A DNA stretch of 64,000 nt, from contig NZ_QDKO01000009.1 in assembly GCF_003094615.1 (NCBI RefSeq), forward strand, positions 620,001 through 684,000. Reading direction: 5' to 3'. Below are positions 41,602 through 48,355 of the stretch, in pieces (position 1 is the stretch's first letter; each line of letters opens with the position of its first letter). The notes beneath the pieces were generated by a model. It was not told the origin of the DNA, did no database searches, and worked only from the letters and a program-made list of their open reading frames with translations. The stretch is from Caulobacter radicis. Lineage in GTDB: Bacteria; Pseudomonadota; Alphaproteobacteria; Caulobacterales; Caulobacteraceae. The translations under genes and the position numbers were made by a program.

Positions 41602-42036
41602 TTAGTGACCTCCGGACCGATCGGGGTGCGGAACCTTCGCTACGTCGGCGGCCGTCACCGGCTTGGCGTAGGCGTTGCCGAAGTGGGTGCGGACATAGGT
41701 GACGACCTGCGCGATCTGGTCGTCGTCCAGCGTGCCGGCGAAGGGCGGCATGCCGCCCTGGCCGCGCACCACCACCATGGAGACGTAAGGGCCGGCGGCC
41801 AGCTTGGGGTTGCCGGCCAGGGCGGGAATCGTCCCCGCGCCGGTCCCGCCCTTGGCGTCGGCCATGTGGCAGGCCTGGCAGACGGCCTCGTAGACCTGCT
41901 GGCCGGTGATCGGCTTTTGCACGCGCACCACGCCGCCGCCGGTGTCGCCGCCCGGCGGGGCCTGGGCGACGGCGGGGATGGCGCAGGCGAGGGCGGCGAT
42001 GAGCGCCGACGCCGCGGCGAGAACGGGACGGGTCAT
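41602..42036 (-). CDS. Exported c-type cytochrome
   Basis: 144 residues. Signal peptide 1-25 (ALIAALACAIPAVAQ), then a single haem motif C53-Q-A-C-H57 (YEAVCQACHMADAKGG) and the distal Met at ~96 in GQGGMPPFAGTLDDDQIAQV. This is a class I cytochrome c, periplasmic. Its start lies two bases after the stop of the flavin amine oxidase gene, so the two are co-transcribed and probably work as dehydrogenase and electron acceptor. Confidence 0.88.
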   Translation of the reverse strand: MTRPVLAAASALIAALACAIPAVAQAPPGGDTGGGVVRVQKPITGQQVYEAVCQACHMADAKGGTGAGTIPALAGNPKLAAGPYVSMVVVRGQGGMPPFAGTLDDDQIAQVVTYVRTHFGNAYAKPVTAADVAKVPHPDRSGGH

Positions 42037-42038
42037 GC

Positions 42039-43631
42039 TCAGGCCTCCAGGGCGCGCTTGTGCAGGCGGGTGATGGCGTCCAGCGACGAGAGCAGGGCGC
42101 CCTCCATCCAGCAGCCGACGTAGGAGGCGTGCTCGCCGGCCAGCACGATCCGCCGGTCCATGGCCACCAGGGTCTGGTAGTGCTGCTTGCGGGTCTCCTC
42201 GGTCCAGCGGGCGCAGCAGCCCAGCGCCCAGGGCACGCGGCTCCAGGCCACCGAGGCGCCGTTCGAAAATTCCTTGCGATAGCTCTGCGGGTGCAGCACC
42301 GAGCCCTGTTGCAGGGCGACCTCGATGCGCTGCTGCGGCGTCATGCCGGCCAGGCGATAGGCCCCCATCTCGCGGGCGAAGGCCCCCAGCAGCACGGCCG
42401 GCCCGTTTCCGAACAGGTTGTTGTTGGGGTAGGAGATCAGGGCGATCTCCTGGTCGGTGAAGCTGTGGCCGCCGTAGATGGAGTCTTCCTCCTCCCAGAA
42501 CCGCCGCTTCATCTCCAGGCCGATCTTCACCTGGCCGGAATAGGGCACGGCCTTGATGGCGGCGGCCAGGTCGTCGCTGATCTCGCTGTCGATCTGGCCG
42601 AGGATGGAAAGCGGAATGGTGCAAACACACCAGTCCGCCTTGGCCGTCTCGACCTTGCCCGTGGCGGTGTCGGAGAAGGTGACGGCCACGCCCTTGTCAT
42701 CCTGGGCGATCTTCGTGACCTTGGCGTTGAAGGTGACGAGGCCCTCGACCTGTTTGGCGAAGGCCTTGCCGATCATGTCCATGCCGCCGACGGGCTGGAA
42801 CATGGTGGTCTGCATCTCGTGGCCCATGAAGAAGGCCATCGAGGTCCAGACCTGCGGGTCGAGCACGTCGTGCAGGGCGTAGAGGTCGGACGGGATCGGC
42901 GCACCGTCGATCCCGCCGCCCGGCGGCCGCTCATAGCCCCGGTGGGCCGAGCTGCGCAGGCCCTTGGCGTAGCGATAGTCGCCATCGAGCATGCCCCAGC
43001 CCTTCAGGGCCTCCAGCAGCTTCTCGCGGTCCTCGGGCGTGACCGCGTCGTCCAGCGCCTTGGTGTTGATCGATTTCGCCAGCAGCTCGGCGACATTGCC
43101 CTCGAAGTCGGCCGCCGCGGCCTTGAAGCGCACCGGCTTGCCGTCGAACGCGGTCGAGGAATGGACGAAGGTGTTGTGGTTGAACTGGATGAAGGGCTCC
43201 AGCGCCACGCCGAATTGCTTGCAATAGTGAAGCAAGGTCCGGTGATGGTGCGGGATGCGCCAAGGGCCGGGGTTGAAGTAGTTGCCGGCCGCAAAGCCCA
43301 CCTTCTGGGTCGCGCCGCCCAGCTCGGTATAGGTGTCGCCGCCTCGCAGAGACCAGTTTCGGCCGCCCGCGCGGCCCTGGTATTCGAGGATCCGCACCTT
43401 GTAGCCGGCGCGGGTCAGCTCATAGGCGGCCAGCAGGCCGGCCAGGCCCGCCCCCAGCACCAGCACCGAGGCGCCGGGCCTTGCGCCCGCGAGGTTCGGC
43501 GGGCCGTGAAACTGGGTCTCGGCGGCGTGGCCGAGGGTGGTCATGGCCTGGTACAGCGCCGCCGTCCCGCCCACCTGGGCGATGGCGGTCAAGAGCTGTC
43601 TTCTGGTTGGTACGCGGACTCCGTCTGGCAT
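42039..43631 (-). CDS. Tat-exported flavin monoamine oxidase/dehydrogenase
   Basis: 530 residues from the ATG at 43631. The N-terminus has a twin-arginine type motif (VPTRRQLLTAIAQ, R10-R11). The FAD site is VLVLGAGLAGLLAAYELTRA with the Rossmann end EYQGRAGGRNW, the G-G-R-x-W of flavin amine oxidases. The C-terminal flavin-binding part is IVLAGEHASYVGCWMEGALL. It is of the MAO/L-amino-acid oxidase family, likely in the periplasm. The adjacent cytochrome c suggests it passes electrons to the respiratory chain and not directly to oxygen, as found for the nicotine enzyme NicA2 and its cytochrome. The amine substrate is unknown. Confidence 0.86.
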   Translation of the reverse strand: MPDGVRVPTRRQLLTAIAQVGGTAALYQAMTTLGHAAETQFHGPPNLAGARPGASVLVLGAGLAGLLAAYELTRAGYKVRILEYQGRAGGRNWSLRGGDTYTELGGATQKVGFAAGNYFNPGPWRIPHHHRTLLHYCKQFGVALEPFIQFNHNTFVHSSTAFDGKPVRFKAAAADFEGNVAELLAKSINTKALDDAVTPEDREKLLEALKGWGMLDGDYRYAKGLRSSAHRGYERPPGGGIDGAPIPSDLYALHDVLDPQVWTSMAFFMGHEMQTTMFQPVGGMDMIGKAFAKQVEGLVTFNAKVTKIAQDDKGVAVTFSDTATGKVETAKADWCVCTIPLSILGQIDSEISDDLAAAIKAVPYSGQVKIGLEMKRRFWEEEDSIYGGHSFTDQEIALISYPNNNLFGNGPAVLLGAFAREMGAYRLAGMTPQQRIEVALQQGSVLHPQSYRKEFSNGASVAWSRVPWALGCCARWTEETRKQHYQTLVAMDRRIVLAGEHASYVGCWMEGALLSSLDAITRLHKRALEA

Positions 43632-43836
43632 TGTGCTCGGCCCTATCCCCTTCGCCGCCGCCCGCGACGAGGCGGCGCTGGGCCGAGCTAAGCAGGGCGT
43701 CTGTCGCCCCCGCCGCCCACTTTGTTCGCGGGGCGAGCGGATGGGTTCGGAGATCACGGTTCCGCAGCGTTCGGACGATGGGGCTGCGCAGGAAACGGGC
43801 AGGACTGGGCGTTGATCGACTCACCGCCTCAAGTTC

Positions 43837-43985
43837 GTCATCCCGGGCGGAGGTCCGCGAAGCGGACTGTAGACCCGGGACCCAGGGGACTGGGTGCAGC
43901 GTTAGGGCGCTGCTCAGGCCGTGGCCGGCGCATCGCGTTGGCCCCTGGATCCCGGCTCTGCGCTTCGCTTCGGCCGGGATGACGG
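43837..43985. repeat. Inverted pair of family E repeats in a 365-base gap
   Basis: CGTCATCCCGGGCGGAGGTCC..GACCCGGGACCCAGGG at the left and CCCCTGGATCCCGGCTCTGCGCTTCGCTTCGGCCGGGATGACG at the right. This is a well-known type of dispersed repeat in Caulobacteraceae and Sphingomonads. The rest of 43632-43996 shows no gene; the amine oxidase promoter must be at its left end. Confidence 0.75.
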
Positions 43986-44758: not shown

Positions 44759-46786
44759 ATGCTGTTTCGCTCCGTACTGCTCGCCGGTTCGCTGCTGGCC
44801 GGCGCCGCCCACGCCCAGGGCGACGTCTATGCGCTGGGCGAGGTGCAGGTAACCGCGCGCAATGCCGCCGGCGAGACGGTGGGCGGCAGCACGGTCAAGG
44901 GCGAGGCTCTGCGCAAGTTCGACAAGGCCAGCGTCGACCAGGCGCTCGACCTGATCCCAGGCGCGGCGGCGGGCGCCAGCGGCGGCTCGCGCAACGAGCG
45001 GCTGGTGTTCATCCGCGGTTTCGACCGCTTCCAGACCACCCTGTCGATCGACGGCGTGCGGGTGTTCCTGCCGGCCGACAACCGTATCGACTTCGCGCGC
45101 TTCCTGACGGCGGATCTGTCGGAAGTGCAGGTCTCCAAGGGCTATGTCTCGGTGCTGGACGGTCCGGGCGGCCTGGGCGGGGCCATCAATCTGGTCACCC
45201 GCAAGCCCTCGCGGCCCTTCGAAGGCGAGATCCGGCTGGGCGCGGGCTTCGACGGCGACGGCTCGCTGAACAGCAACACCGTGTCGGGCCGCATCGGCGG
45301 CAAGACCGACCGCTTCTACGTCCAGGCCAGCGGCGCGCGCAGCGAGCGCACCCACTGGCGGCTGCCCGACGACTACAAGACCACGGCGCTGGAGAACGGC
45401 GGCAATCGCGACCACTCCGAAAGCGAGGACTGGCGGGTCAACCTCAAGGCCGGCTTCACGCCCAACGCCACCGACGAATACTCGATCACCTACACCCGCC
45501 AGGAGGGCGAGAAGAACGCGCCCTATCACGTCACCGATACGGCCAGCACCCGCTACTGGTCCTGGCCCTACTGGAACATCGACAGCCTGGCCCTGTTGAC
45601 CCGCACGAAGATCGCCGACAACGCGGTGCTGAAGGCCCGCGTCTATCGCAACAGCTTCGAGAACGCGCTCTACTCCTTCGACAACGCCCGCCAGAACAGC
45701 CAGACCCTGGGGCGGGCGTTCCGCTCCTACTATGACGACGTGGCCTATGGCGGGAACCTGGAGCTGGACGTCGACGTCACCGCCAGCAACACCCTGAAGG
45801 CCGCCGCCTTCTATCGTCGCGACGAGCACGTGGAGTGGCAGCAGAGCTTCGCCCCCGCCGCGACCGAACCGCGCCAGACGGTGATCGAGGACACCACCTC
45901 GGTCGCCCTGGAGGACACCCAGCGCTTCGGCGACAAGGTCGACCTGGTGGTCGGCGTGTCGCGCGATCGCCGCGACCTGGTCACCGCCCAGGACTACAAC
46001 TCGAACGCCTTCGTCTTCTATCCGCTGACCGACGACGTGGCCTGGAACGGCCAGGCGGCCCTGGTCTGGCGGCCGCTGCCCGACGTGCAGCTGCACGGCA
46101 GCGTCTCGTCGCGCGCCCGCTTTCCGACCCTGTTCGAGCGCTACAGCGCCCGCATGGGCCAGGCCGTGCCCAATCCGGACGTCAAGGCCGAGCGGGCGAT
46201 CAACTACGAGCTGGGCGGTTCGGTCGACTTCACCCCGCTGCTGAAGATCGAGGGGGCGGTGTTCTACAGCGACGTGCGCGACGCCCTGATCCTGATCCCG
46301 GTGGCGCTGGGCCCGCCCTACGGCACGGTCAACCAGACCAAGAACGCCGGCGACGGCGAGTATTACGGCCTGGAAGGCGCGGCGACCTTCAAGGCCGGCG
46401 ACCATCTGACCCTGGGCGGCAACTATACCTACCTGCACCGCAAGCTGACCGACCCGACCAACGCCGCCTTCCGTCCGACCGGCACGCCGGACCACAAGCT
46501 GTTCCTCTATGCCGACTGGACGCTGAACGACCGCCTGTCGCTGACGCCCAGCGTGGAGGCGGCGTCGAAGCGCTGGACGGTGACCTCGAGCTCGCTGGTC
46601 AGCCCCGCCCGCTACTACCGCACCGGCGGCTATGTGCTGGCCAATCTGACGGCCCAGGTGACGGTGACGCCGAAGATCGACGTCATCCTCGGGGCCCGCA
46701 ACCTGCTGGACCAGAAGTACCAGCTGGTCGACGGCTTCCCCGAGGAAGGCCGCAACTTCCGCGCCGACCTGCGGGTCAAGTTCTGA
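44759..46786 (+). CDS. TonB-dependent outer-membrane receptor (operon with MauG-like enzyme)
   Basis: 675 residues. Signal peptide 1-19 (MLFRSVLLAGSLLAGAAHA). Mature N-terminus with the TonB box-like ALGEVQVTARNAAGE, plug domain motifs FIRGFDRFQTTLSIDGVRVF and VLDGPGGLGGAINLVTRKP, barrel ending NFRADLRVKF. It is closer to siderophore/metal-chelate receptors than to the long sugar-type receptors, but the ligand is unknown. First gene of a three-gene operon with a small exported protein and a di-haem peroxidase, 11 bases and then 16 bases apart. A perfect palindrome overlaps its ribosome-binding site. Confidence 0.9.
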   Translation: MLFRSVLLAGSLLAGAAHAQGDVYALGEVQVTARNAAGETVGGSTVKGEALRKFDKASVDQALDLIPGAAAGASGGSRNERLVFIRGFDRFQTTLSIDGVRVFLPADNRIDFARFLTADLSEVQVSKGYVSVLDGPGGLGGAINLVTRKPSRPFEGEIRLGAGFDGDGSLNSNTVSGRIGGKTDRFYVQASGARSERTHWRLPDDYKTTALENGGNRDHSESEDWRVNLKAGFTPNATDEYSITYTRQEGEKNAPYHVTDTASTRYWSWPYWNIDSLALLTRTKIADNAVLKARVYRNSFENALYSFDNARQNSQTLGRAFRSYYDDVAYGGNLELDVDVTASNTLKAAAFYRRDEHVEWQQSFAPAATEPRQTVIEDTTSVALEDTQRFGDKVDLVVGVSRDRRDLVTAQDYNSNAFVFYPLTDDVAWNGQAALVWRPLPDVQLHGSVSSRARFPTLFERYSARMGQAVPNPDVKAERAINYELGGSVDFTPLLKIEGAVFYSDVRDALILIPVALGPPYGTVNQTKNAGDGEYYGLEGAATFKAGDHLTLGGNYTYLHRKLTDPTNAAFRPTGTPDHKLFLYADWTLNDRLSLTPSVEAASKRWTVTSSSLVSPARYYRTGGYVLANLTAQVTVTPKIDVILGARNLLDQKYQLVDGFPEEGRNFRADLRVKF

Positions 46787-46797
46787 GGAGCCCCGCC

Positions 46798-47322
46798 ATG
46801 CGTCTTGCCCTGATCCTCGCCGCCGGCCTCGCCCTTACTGCGCCCGCCGCCCTGGCCCAGACCCAGCCGGACGCGGCTTGCGCGCCCGGCGTCGAGGCCG
46901 GCCTGCCGCCGGAGCTTTCGGCCTGGGCGGCCAAGTCGCCATTGACGGCTGCGACCTCGGTCGCGGACCTGCCAAAGGTCTCGCTGGCGCCCGGCCAGGC
47001 CTATGCCGCCACGCTGTCGCCGACGCCGGACGTGGCCTACGCCGTCCAGCCGGAAAAGCCCGGCGGCACGGTCAGCAAGGGCGGCCTGTTCTCGCTGAAG
47101 GTCGACACGGCCGGCTCCTATGTGATCGCCCTGGGGACCGGCGCCTGGATCGACGTGCTGAAGGACGGCGCGGCCCAGCGCTCGACCGCCCACGGTCGGG
47201 GGCCGGCCTGCTCGACCGTGCGCAAGATGGTGACCTTCGATCTTTCGCCCGGCGACTACCTGATCCAGATCTCGGCCAACGCCCAGGCCGAGCTGCCGAT
47301 CATGGTCGCCCGCAAGCCCTGA
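46798..47322 (+). CDS. Small exported protein with a conserved-looking Cys pair
   Basis: 174 residues from the ATG at 46798. Signal peptide 1-20 (LALILAAGLALTAPAALAQ). The mature protein is beta-rich, with C28, C138, H132 and two tryptophans (W43, W117); the C-terminal part reads CSTVRKMVTFDLSPGDYLIQ. A C28-C138 disulfide is likely in the periplasm. I do not recognise a named family. Its position between a TonB receptor and a MauG-type di-haem enzyme recalls the partner protein MbnP in methanobactin operons, although I cannot show homology; a tryptophan here could be the oxidised target. That role is inference. Confidence 0.7.
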   Translation: MRLALILAAGLALTAPAALAQTQPDAACAPGVEAGLPPELSAWAAKSPLTAATSVADLPKVSLAPGQAYAATLSPTPDVAYAVQPEKPGGTVSKGGLFSLKVDTAGSYVIALGTGAWIDVLKDGAAQRSTAHGRGPACSTVRKMVTFDLSPGDYLIQISANAQAELPIMVARKP

Positions 47323-47338
47323 CGTGACGGGGAGGGGC

Positions 47339-48355
47339 GTGAAGCTGGAAGCCTACGGCAAGGCGCTGGCCCTGGCGGCTTGTCTGCTGCTGAGCGCCGC
47401 CTTCGCACCCGCCGCCGTCTCGGGCTTCGACTGGAAGCTGCCGGCGGGCGTCGCCCCGCCGCCGGTTCCGGCCGACAATCCGATGTCGGACGCCAAGGTC
47501 GCGCTGGGGCGCAAGCTGTTCTACGAGGCCGACCTCTCCATCGACGGCACGATGTCGTGCGCCACCTGCCACGAGCAGCGGCGCGGCTTCACCGACAGCA
47601 ACCGCACCCATCCCGGCGTGCATGGCGACCCGGGACGGCGCAACATCCAGACCCTGGCGAACGTCGGCTACTTCCGCGCCCTGACCTGGGGCGATCCGGG
47701 CGTGAAGACGCTGGAGGCCCAGGCCCTGATCCCGATCGCCGGGGCCAAGCCGGTCGAGATGGGCTTTGCCGGCCAGGAGGCGGTGCTGACCGCGCGTCTG
47801 GCCGGCCAGGCCTGCTATCGCAGGATGTTCGGCGAGGCCTTTCCCGAGGTTGGCGGCGAGGTCAGCATGGTGACGATCGCCAAGGCCCTGGCCGCCTTCC
47901 AGCGCACGCTCGTCTCGTTCGACAGCCCCCATGATCGGCGCAAGCGGGGCAAGGCCGTCGCGGTGTCGGCCGAAGCCGAGCGCGGCGAGCGGCTGTTCAG
48001 GGCGAACTGCGCGAGCTGCCATGCCGGCCCGCTGTTCACCGACGCCGACAAGGCCCGCTTCCACCGCATCGACGCGCCGTTCACCGGCGACCAAGGCCTC
48101 GCCGACGTCACCGGCGAGGCGACCGACGCCGGCCGCTTCCGCACGCCTTCGTTGCGGAACGTGGCGCTGAGCGCGCCTTACCTGCACGACGGCTCGGCCC
48201 CTACGCTGGAGATAGCGATCCGCCGGCATCGCGTGGCGATGCGGCTGGGGGATCGACAGGTCGCGGACCTCGTCGAGTTCCTGGGTACGCTGACCGACGA
48301 GGCCTTCGTCACCGATCCGCGGTTTTCCCTGCCTGAGCCTGGGTGCGGACCCTAG
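47339..48355 (+). CDS. Di-haem cytochrome c peroxidase/MauG-family protein
   Basis: 338 residues from the GTG at 47339 (GGGGAGG just upstream; the GTG at 47324 is an alternative). Signal peptide to ~27 (AYGKALALAACLLLSAAFAP). Two haem motifs: C74-A-T-C-H78 (MSCATCHEQRRGFTD) and C224-A-S-C-H228 (NCASCHAGPLFTD). The MauG/CcpA signature SAPYLHDGSAPTLEIAIRRH follows at the C-terminus. It is a periplasmic peroxidase or a MauG-like protein-modifying oxidase. Third gene of the TonB receptor operon. Its stop overlaps the stop of the convergent Reb gene (CTAG on both strands). Confidence 0.88.
   Translation: MKLEAYGKALALAACLLLSAAFAPAAVSGFDWKLPAGVAPPPVPADNPMSDAKVALGRKLFYEADLSIDGTMSCATCHEQRRGFTDSNRTHPGVHGDPGRRNIQTLANVGYFRALTWGDPGVKTLEAQALIPIAGAKPVEMGFAGQEAVLTARLAGQACYRRMFGEAFPEVGGEVSMVTIAKALAAFQRTLVSFDSPHDRRKRGKAVAVSAEAERGERLFRANCASCHAGPLFTDADKARFHRIDAPFTGDQGLADVTGEATDAGRFRTPSLRNVALSAPYLHDGSAPTLEIAIRRHRVAMRLGDRQVADLVEFLGTLTDEAFVTDPRFSLPEPGCGP

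Follow-up and report, generated by a model that had tools for sequence, protein, structure and literature searches.

A pair of adjoining genes on the reverse strand of the analysed window, a 64,000-nucleotide stretch of a Caulobacter radicis contig, probably (at a likelihood of about 0.68) encodes a periplasmic, cytochrome-c-dependent L-amino-acid dehydrogenase. The first gene (42039-43631) codes for a 530-residue flavin amine oxidoreductase of the L-amino-acid oxidase (LAAO) type, recognized by Pfam, by structure match and by its Tat motif. The second gene (41602-42036) codes for a 144-residue monohaem class I cytochrome c, recognized by Pfam and carrying what looks by eye like a Sec-type signal. 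The pairing of the two genes is strongly conserved, beyond chance. A preliminary description of this DNA had spoken of an amine or amino-acid dehydrogenase. The amino-acid side is favoured by the LAAO type of the enzyme; the amine side appears less likely, since three LAAO residues are invariant among homologues and RidA is found in many relatives.

The flavoprotein reading frame is uninterrupted, and its translation contains P-T-R-R-Q-L-L close to the N-terminus, with the twin-arginine motif T-R-R-Q-L-L at residues 9-14 (43590-43607, reverse strand). The Pfam family Amino_oxidase (PF01593) matches the protein at 1.2e-55 and 190.1 bits, against a curated cut-off of 19.8, over model positions 1-438 of 443. 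The cytochrome has a hydrophobic N-terminus, a single haem-binding motif, CQACH, in its translation (residues 53-57; 41866-41880, reverse strand) and a likely ligand in Met96 (GGMPPF); it matches Pfam Cytochrome_CBB3 at 1.5e-14. A Tat motif and a cytochrome signal peptide had been claimed in the preliminary description, and motif and hydrophobicity bear out both export signals. Both proteins are predicted to reside in the periplasm. The 2-base spacing reported between the genes agrees exactly with the coordinates: the TGA stop codon of the flavoprotein gene is at 42039-42041 and the ATG of the cytochrome gene at 42034-42036. A Shine-Dalgarno-like GGAGG of the cytochrome gene (42044-42048, reverse strand) lies inside the 3' end of the oxidase gene, 7 bases before the ATG. 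No stable RNA hairpin was detected by folding score at the flavoprotein/cytochrome junction (z -0.04). Third-position G+C is 0.92 in both genes of the pair and 0.94 in the neighbouring TonB receptor gene. Near relatives with named loci include C. endophyticus and C. zeae, by locus title, at 98% identity.

The intergenic region 5' of the flavoprotein gene contains a stretch (43835-43985) that by eye resembles a repeat-type element with inverted halves. Divergent from the pair, on the forward strand (44759-48355), are genes for a TonB-dependent receptor, a secreted-looking protein of about 180 residues, whose frame begins near 46800, and a dihaem MauG/CCP-like protein; these genes are present at 4 or 5 of the 80 named loci considered below.

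By sequence and fold, the flavoprotein is an enzyme of the R. opacus LAAO type. Among the best 60 of 95 sequence matches in the structure database, R. opacus LAAO (2JAE) ranks first, with 312.7 bits over residues 52-528 (E 4.9e-92) and 34-35% sequence identity; none of these 60 is labelled NicA2. An AlphaFold2 model of the flavoprotein (mean pLDDT 78.4, pTM 0.77) had 2JAE as its top Foldseek match (E 3.2e-45), and VIA-align of the model and 2JAE gave a Z of 45.7 with 467 aligned residues at 2.4 A. In contrast, Pnao (7U6L) matched the window protein with 28.9 bits and a best stretch, residues 47-107, that covers the FAD motif only. This argues against close kinship with Pnao and points to another branch for the NicA2/Pnao enzymes. 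Three residues that we take to belong to the active site of R. opacus LAAO, an Arg (presumably the main carboxylate anchor), a Lys and a Trp, have aligned counterparts in Arg125, Lys369 and Trp508 of the window protein. The three are invariant in 119/119 non-redundant homologues and unchanged in 82/82 rows of a second alignment. The window protein differs from R. opacus LAAO in having Phe418 in place of the LAAO Tyr, which we assume to be a carboxylate-binding residue, and Cys507 in place of the adjacent Ala. The R. opacus enzyme bears an oxidase name, and we know of no cytochrome partner for it.

Conservation of the pairing was analysed in two samples. A cytochrome gene borders the enzyme gene at 79 of 80 named loci drawn from a separate collection; it lies downstream at 64 of them and upstream at 15 (12 titled Novosphingobium and 3 Sphingomonadales). 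At the single exception the enzyme frame is broken off at the contig end (locus L096). The preliminary description had held that a cytochrome missing from most neighbourhoods would speak against its proposal, and these loci are the reverse of that. It had also suggested following co-occurrence across genomes. Among 61 congeneric genomes, tallied from two match lists (enzyme matches of at least 83%, cytochrome matches of at least 62%), 28 have both genes, 33 have neither and 0 have one alone, so that presence and absence are concordant in 61/61; in all 28 genomes with two genes the enzyme and cytochrome matches lie within about 36 nt. The counts from the 61 genomes and the 80 loci are not independent, because the samples overlap and the genomes are related. 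A second congeneric enzyme, 41-44% identical, has an adjacent cytochrome match (E 1e-10) in 36/37 genomes, the exception being genome G030. Exactly one haem motif is present in 95/96 partner cytochromes. A Tat-like RR motif was found in 94/97 homologues with a nearby cytochrome-profile match and in 20/22 without one; it is therefore no discriminator, and a Tat signal alone is no sign of a dehydrogenase.

As a control, other neighbours from the window were counted at the 80 loci: the TonB receptor and GST at 5 each, an AAA ATPase, the MauG-like protein, FlhA and a flagellar regulator at 4 each, and a frame from the LepA region at 1, all counts being lowered by some loci that are too short to span the whole flank. 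Other window genes were considered as partners and rejected, each recurring in only 1-5 of the 80 loci.

The cytochrome link was mapped onto a tree of 74 rows whose root, placed on the long branch of R. opacus LAAO, is unsure. One 55-row group (SH-aLRT 92) has an adjacent monohaem cytochrome in 54 rows, 53 of them by profile and one, L069, by direct reading, where the profile missed a CAACH frame 178 nt downstream. The group's one exception, L128_5, is a tandem enzyme copy without a cytochrome of its own. No cytochrome was detected by profile, at the score used, in the sister group of 18 rows (SH-aLRT 88). On direct reading, three of its members, L166, L169 and L171 (36-38% identity), proved to carry a gene for a dihaem c4-like cytochrome, placed between the enzyme gene and RidA; the profile, built on the window cytochrome, had missed these genes or scored them low. 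After this reading 15/18 rows of the sister group are without a haem gene. This mostly haem-free group allows oxidase and dehydrogenase to be set side by side inside one subfamily, a comparison provided by nature. When nine plasmid rows were added, the monohaem-linked rows and L128_5 formed a 62-row group with a support of only 67, maybe because of a long Thiodictyon branch within it. In this 83-row tree the gene order changed at least two times among cytochrome-linked rows with the link retained.

One simpler statement about the relatives was discarded. Relatives of less than 40% identity cannot be said to lack a cytochrome, given the dihaem genes of L166, L169 and L171 and an adjacent cytochrome of the 33%-identical Thiodictyon enzyme. 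The dihaem pairing may have arisen separately or share its origin with the monohaem pairing, as the AU test, with the nested tandem copy L128_5 included in the held group, leaves a single origin of linkage unrejected (p 0.144). Tandem enzyme genes are present in a Sphingomonadales MAG (L121) and a Pseudomonadota MAG (L128); in the latter the next cytochrome is about 1.6 kb downstream of the copy that has none of its own.

A link that is merely positional, with both genes inherited together in a stable operon, would fit the shared ancestry that makes the congeneric counts non-independent. We regard it as barely credible: the link persists across Alphaproteobacteria, Betaproteobacteria and Deinococcus and has survived two or more changes of gene order, while the other neighbours tested vary, and in three relatives the slot between enzyme and RidA is occupied by another kind of cytochrome, a dihaem one.

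The enzyme may alternatively be an ordinary oxygen-using oxidase whose cytochrome has a separate task, such as peroxide handling or independent oxidase feeding. R. opacus LAAO and the venom LAAOs, its closest relatives of solved structure, are named oxidases, and the window protein retains Lys369, the counterpart of the lysine associated with oxygen activation; according to PMC12224317, almost every known dehydrogenase of the superfamily retains that lysine as well. The near-obligate pairing and the placement of haem-gene-free relatives mostly (15/18 rows) in a separate sister group argue against an oxidase, as do two published results. In the tests described in PMC12224317 (Akram 2025), an adjacent cytochrome gene predicted dehydrogenase function and was the stronger predictor of it, and the Gluconacetobacter diazotrophicus pathway treated below depends on ccm, as reported in PMC5053998. 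The first source also describes a B. anthina FAO with an adjacent cytochrome whose oxygen rate is comparable to its cytochrome rate, and clade 1 FAO pairs with only modest reaction with their own cytochromes. Taken together, we consider an oxidase with an unrelated cytochrome improbable.

The NicA2 analogy drawn in the preliminary description is sound as a precedent for the mechanism. NicA2/Pnao with CycN and the clade 1-3 FAO dehydrogenases, as described in PMC9396064 and PMC12224317, likewise consist of a Tat-type FAO and an adjacent, separately exported cytochrome c. By this analogy, the window enzyme would transfer electrons to its partner cytochrome and react poorly with oxygen. In the scheme that we propose, the flavoprotein would fold with FAD in the cytoplasm and be exported by Tat, and the cytochrome would be exported by Sec and have its haem attached by the Ccm system. 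In the periplasm an L-alpha-amino acid, or a close analogue, would donate a hydride to FAD, and the resulting imino acid would hydrolyse to a keto acid and ammonia, a step that RidA, found with a signal-like start in many relatives, may assist. The FADH2 would be reoxidised by the partner cytochrome c in two steps of one electron each, and the cytochrome would pass the electrons to a terminal oxidase; with electrons leaving by this route, no hydrogen peroxide would be made. The same genome encodes three COX1, one CcmE and one TatC. Oxidase names in this protein family imply hydrogen peroxide production. If the proposed scheme is true, many "flavin monoamine oxidase family" annotations point to the wrong acceptor, and if the lineage uses cytochrome c, its bacteria draw energy from periplasmic amino acids.

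The predicted substrate class is L-amino acids, judging from the active-site alignment. For the window enzyme an alpha-amino acid is less certain than for the family, because of Phe418 and the lack of a RidA gene nearby. Across the 119 homologues the Tyr position is occupied by Phe in 43 (window protein included) and by Asn in 1. When homologues are ordered by closeness, the Phe-Cys combination is found in 35 of the nearest 37 and Tyr-Cys in the other 2. The next 24 contain Tyr-Cys in 15, Tyr-Ala in 3, Phe-Cys in 3, Phe-Gly in 2 and Asn-Gly in 1, and the following 30 contain Tyr-Ala in 22, Tyr-Gly in 5, Phe-Gly in 2 and Phe-Ala in 1. The farthest 28 have Tyr in all.

RidA-family genes are found at nine places in the genome, none of them near the window pair. 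One adjoins a paralogous enzyme-cytochrome pair (C9:462905-465506), in which the second enzyme of the genome (C9:463947-465506) stands in the row enzyme-cytochrome-RidA; the third enzyme (C36:45724-47226) has no cytochrome match and is followed by RidA. RidA genes adjoin many relatives of the enzyme and are listed in at least 5 of 12 annotated plasmid loci of at least 47% identity. Inspection by eye of 13 of 70 RidA-like frames revealed a hydrophobic, signal-like N-terminus in 12, one of these being lipoprotein-like. Among 79 close rows, which include duplicate loci and some flanks of only 1.5 kb, a RidA frame lies within 3 kb in 4 and never in the operon of the pair; 3 of these 4 frames are on the opposite strand, 1.2-2.1 kb upstream.

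With Phe replacing the pocket Tyr and RidA not directly adjoining the pair, the window branch may have a different substrate. The enzyme could be a cytochrome-dependent dehydrogenase acting on something other than an ordinary L-alpha-amino acid: an amine, an amino alcohol or a modified amino acid. The shift from Tyr with Ala or Gly (27/30 middle-distance homologues) to Phe with Cys (35/37 non-redundant close homologues), the Cys that replaces Ala/Gly in the window branch and in many sphingomonad relatives, and an operon without the RidA that many relatives have would all fit such an enzyme. Against it stand the Arg aligned with the carboxylate anchor, invariant in all homologues, and the coexistence of Cys with Tyr in 15 of the 24 intermediate relatives. 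The proposed association of Phe418 with RidA absence was dropped, as it lacks significance once the tree is taken into account (median p = 1 over 5 independent pairs), and the window enzyme could share RidA supplied by other operons of the genome. We consider a substrate outside the ordinary L-alpha-amino acids unlikely, though a real contender, and retain the L-amino-acid dehydrogenase as the preferred reading.

Both the general principle (NicA2, Pnao, Akram 2025) and the gene cluster (Rodrigues 2016) are already in print. The survey of Akram 2025 was seeded on NicA2, and its main text contains neither "amino acid oxidase" nor "LAAO" (PMC12224317). The cluster is lao-cccA-ridA of G. diazotrophicus (GDI2456-2454; Rodrigues 2016, PMC5053998), which resembles the window pair in its Tat-type LAAO-like flavoprotein and adjacent cytochrome c and differs in having ridA as a third gene, absent from the window pair. 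As reported in PMC5053998, Tn5 insertions in lao abolished IAA, and mutants in cytochrome c maturation (ccm) made 5% of wild-type IAA in work of 2004 cited there. The function of the cluster rests in that report on lao mutants and transcripts; its authors suggest that the cytochrome might assist LAAO, leave the role open and state that Caulobacter crescentus and Xanthomonas share this gene arrangement. Residues 9-195 of the window protein have 65.8% identity to a fragment encoded on an Acetobacter plasmid, a hint that the enzyme of acetic acid bacteria belongs to the window lineage; on this basis GDI2456 too may be placed there. If a cytochrome-dependent dehydrogenase is the true reading, it would explain why auxin formation in G. 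diazotrophicus needs cytochrome c maturation, and the 2004 observation would get a testable mechanism, with the cytochrome as electron acceptor of a tryptophan-oxidising enzyme. Chlamydomonas LAO1 with LAO2/RidA (PMC10805672) is likewise a periplasmic LAAO working with a RidA protein; in contrast to the proposed scheme, hydrogen peroxide is made, and the cluster as described there has no cytochrome. Our literature search, which fell short of most subscription journals, found neither a report of an LAAO-type enzyme passing electrons to cytochrome c nor a biochemical test of such transfer in this lineage.

Matches were found, at the thresholds used, in 49/119 genomes of the family, 23/387 of the class and 29/397 of the phylum. 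A plasmid search yielded 37 records with an enzyme match, of which 17 were examined, the Acetobacter one (2 kb) being too short to judge. A haem ORF is adjacent in 13/13 examined plasmid enzymes of at least 47% identity, upstream in two, both from Deinococcus, and in 1/3 of those below 37% identity (Thiodictyon, 33% identical). The enzyme-cytochrome link extends over Alpha- and Betaproteobacteria and Deinococcus. On a plasmid of Dinoroseobacter shibae (L184), coxB, ctaD and an oxidase assembly gene precede the pair on the same strand; on one of Roseinatronobacter (L193) the pair again follows on the same strand, behind ctaD, a small gene and one more gene for a cytochrome. These two Rhodobacterales have the genes of a putative enzyme-to-terminal-oxidase route lined up in a single row.

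We tentatively suggest, at somewhat less than even odds, a broader reading: the pair would belong to an additional lineage of respiratory flavin dehydrogenases, LAAO-type and distinct from the NicA2-centred clades, present in Pseudomonadota and Deinococcus, with a retooled pocket in the window branch. Its chain would consist of a Tat dehydrogenase, a private cytochrome c, sometimes replaced by a dihaem c4-like cytochrome, and often an exported RidA. The pocket change, Tyr to Phe beside Cys in the Caulobacter/Phenylobacterium branch, would serve a different substrate.

A further arrangement was observed on a plasmid of Metabacillus dongyingensis (L196, 2474-5737), where a 36%-identical enzyme without a cytochrome is followed on the same strand by a Rid hydrolase, TatA and TatC, as if the export machine were travelling with the enzyme.
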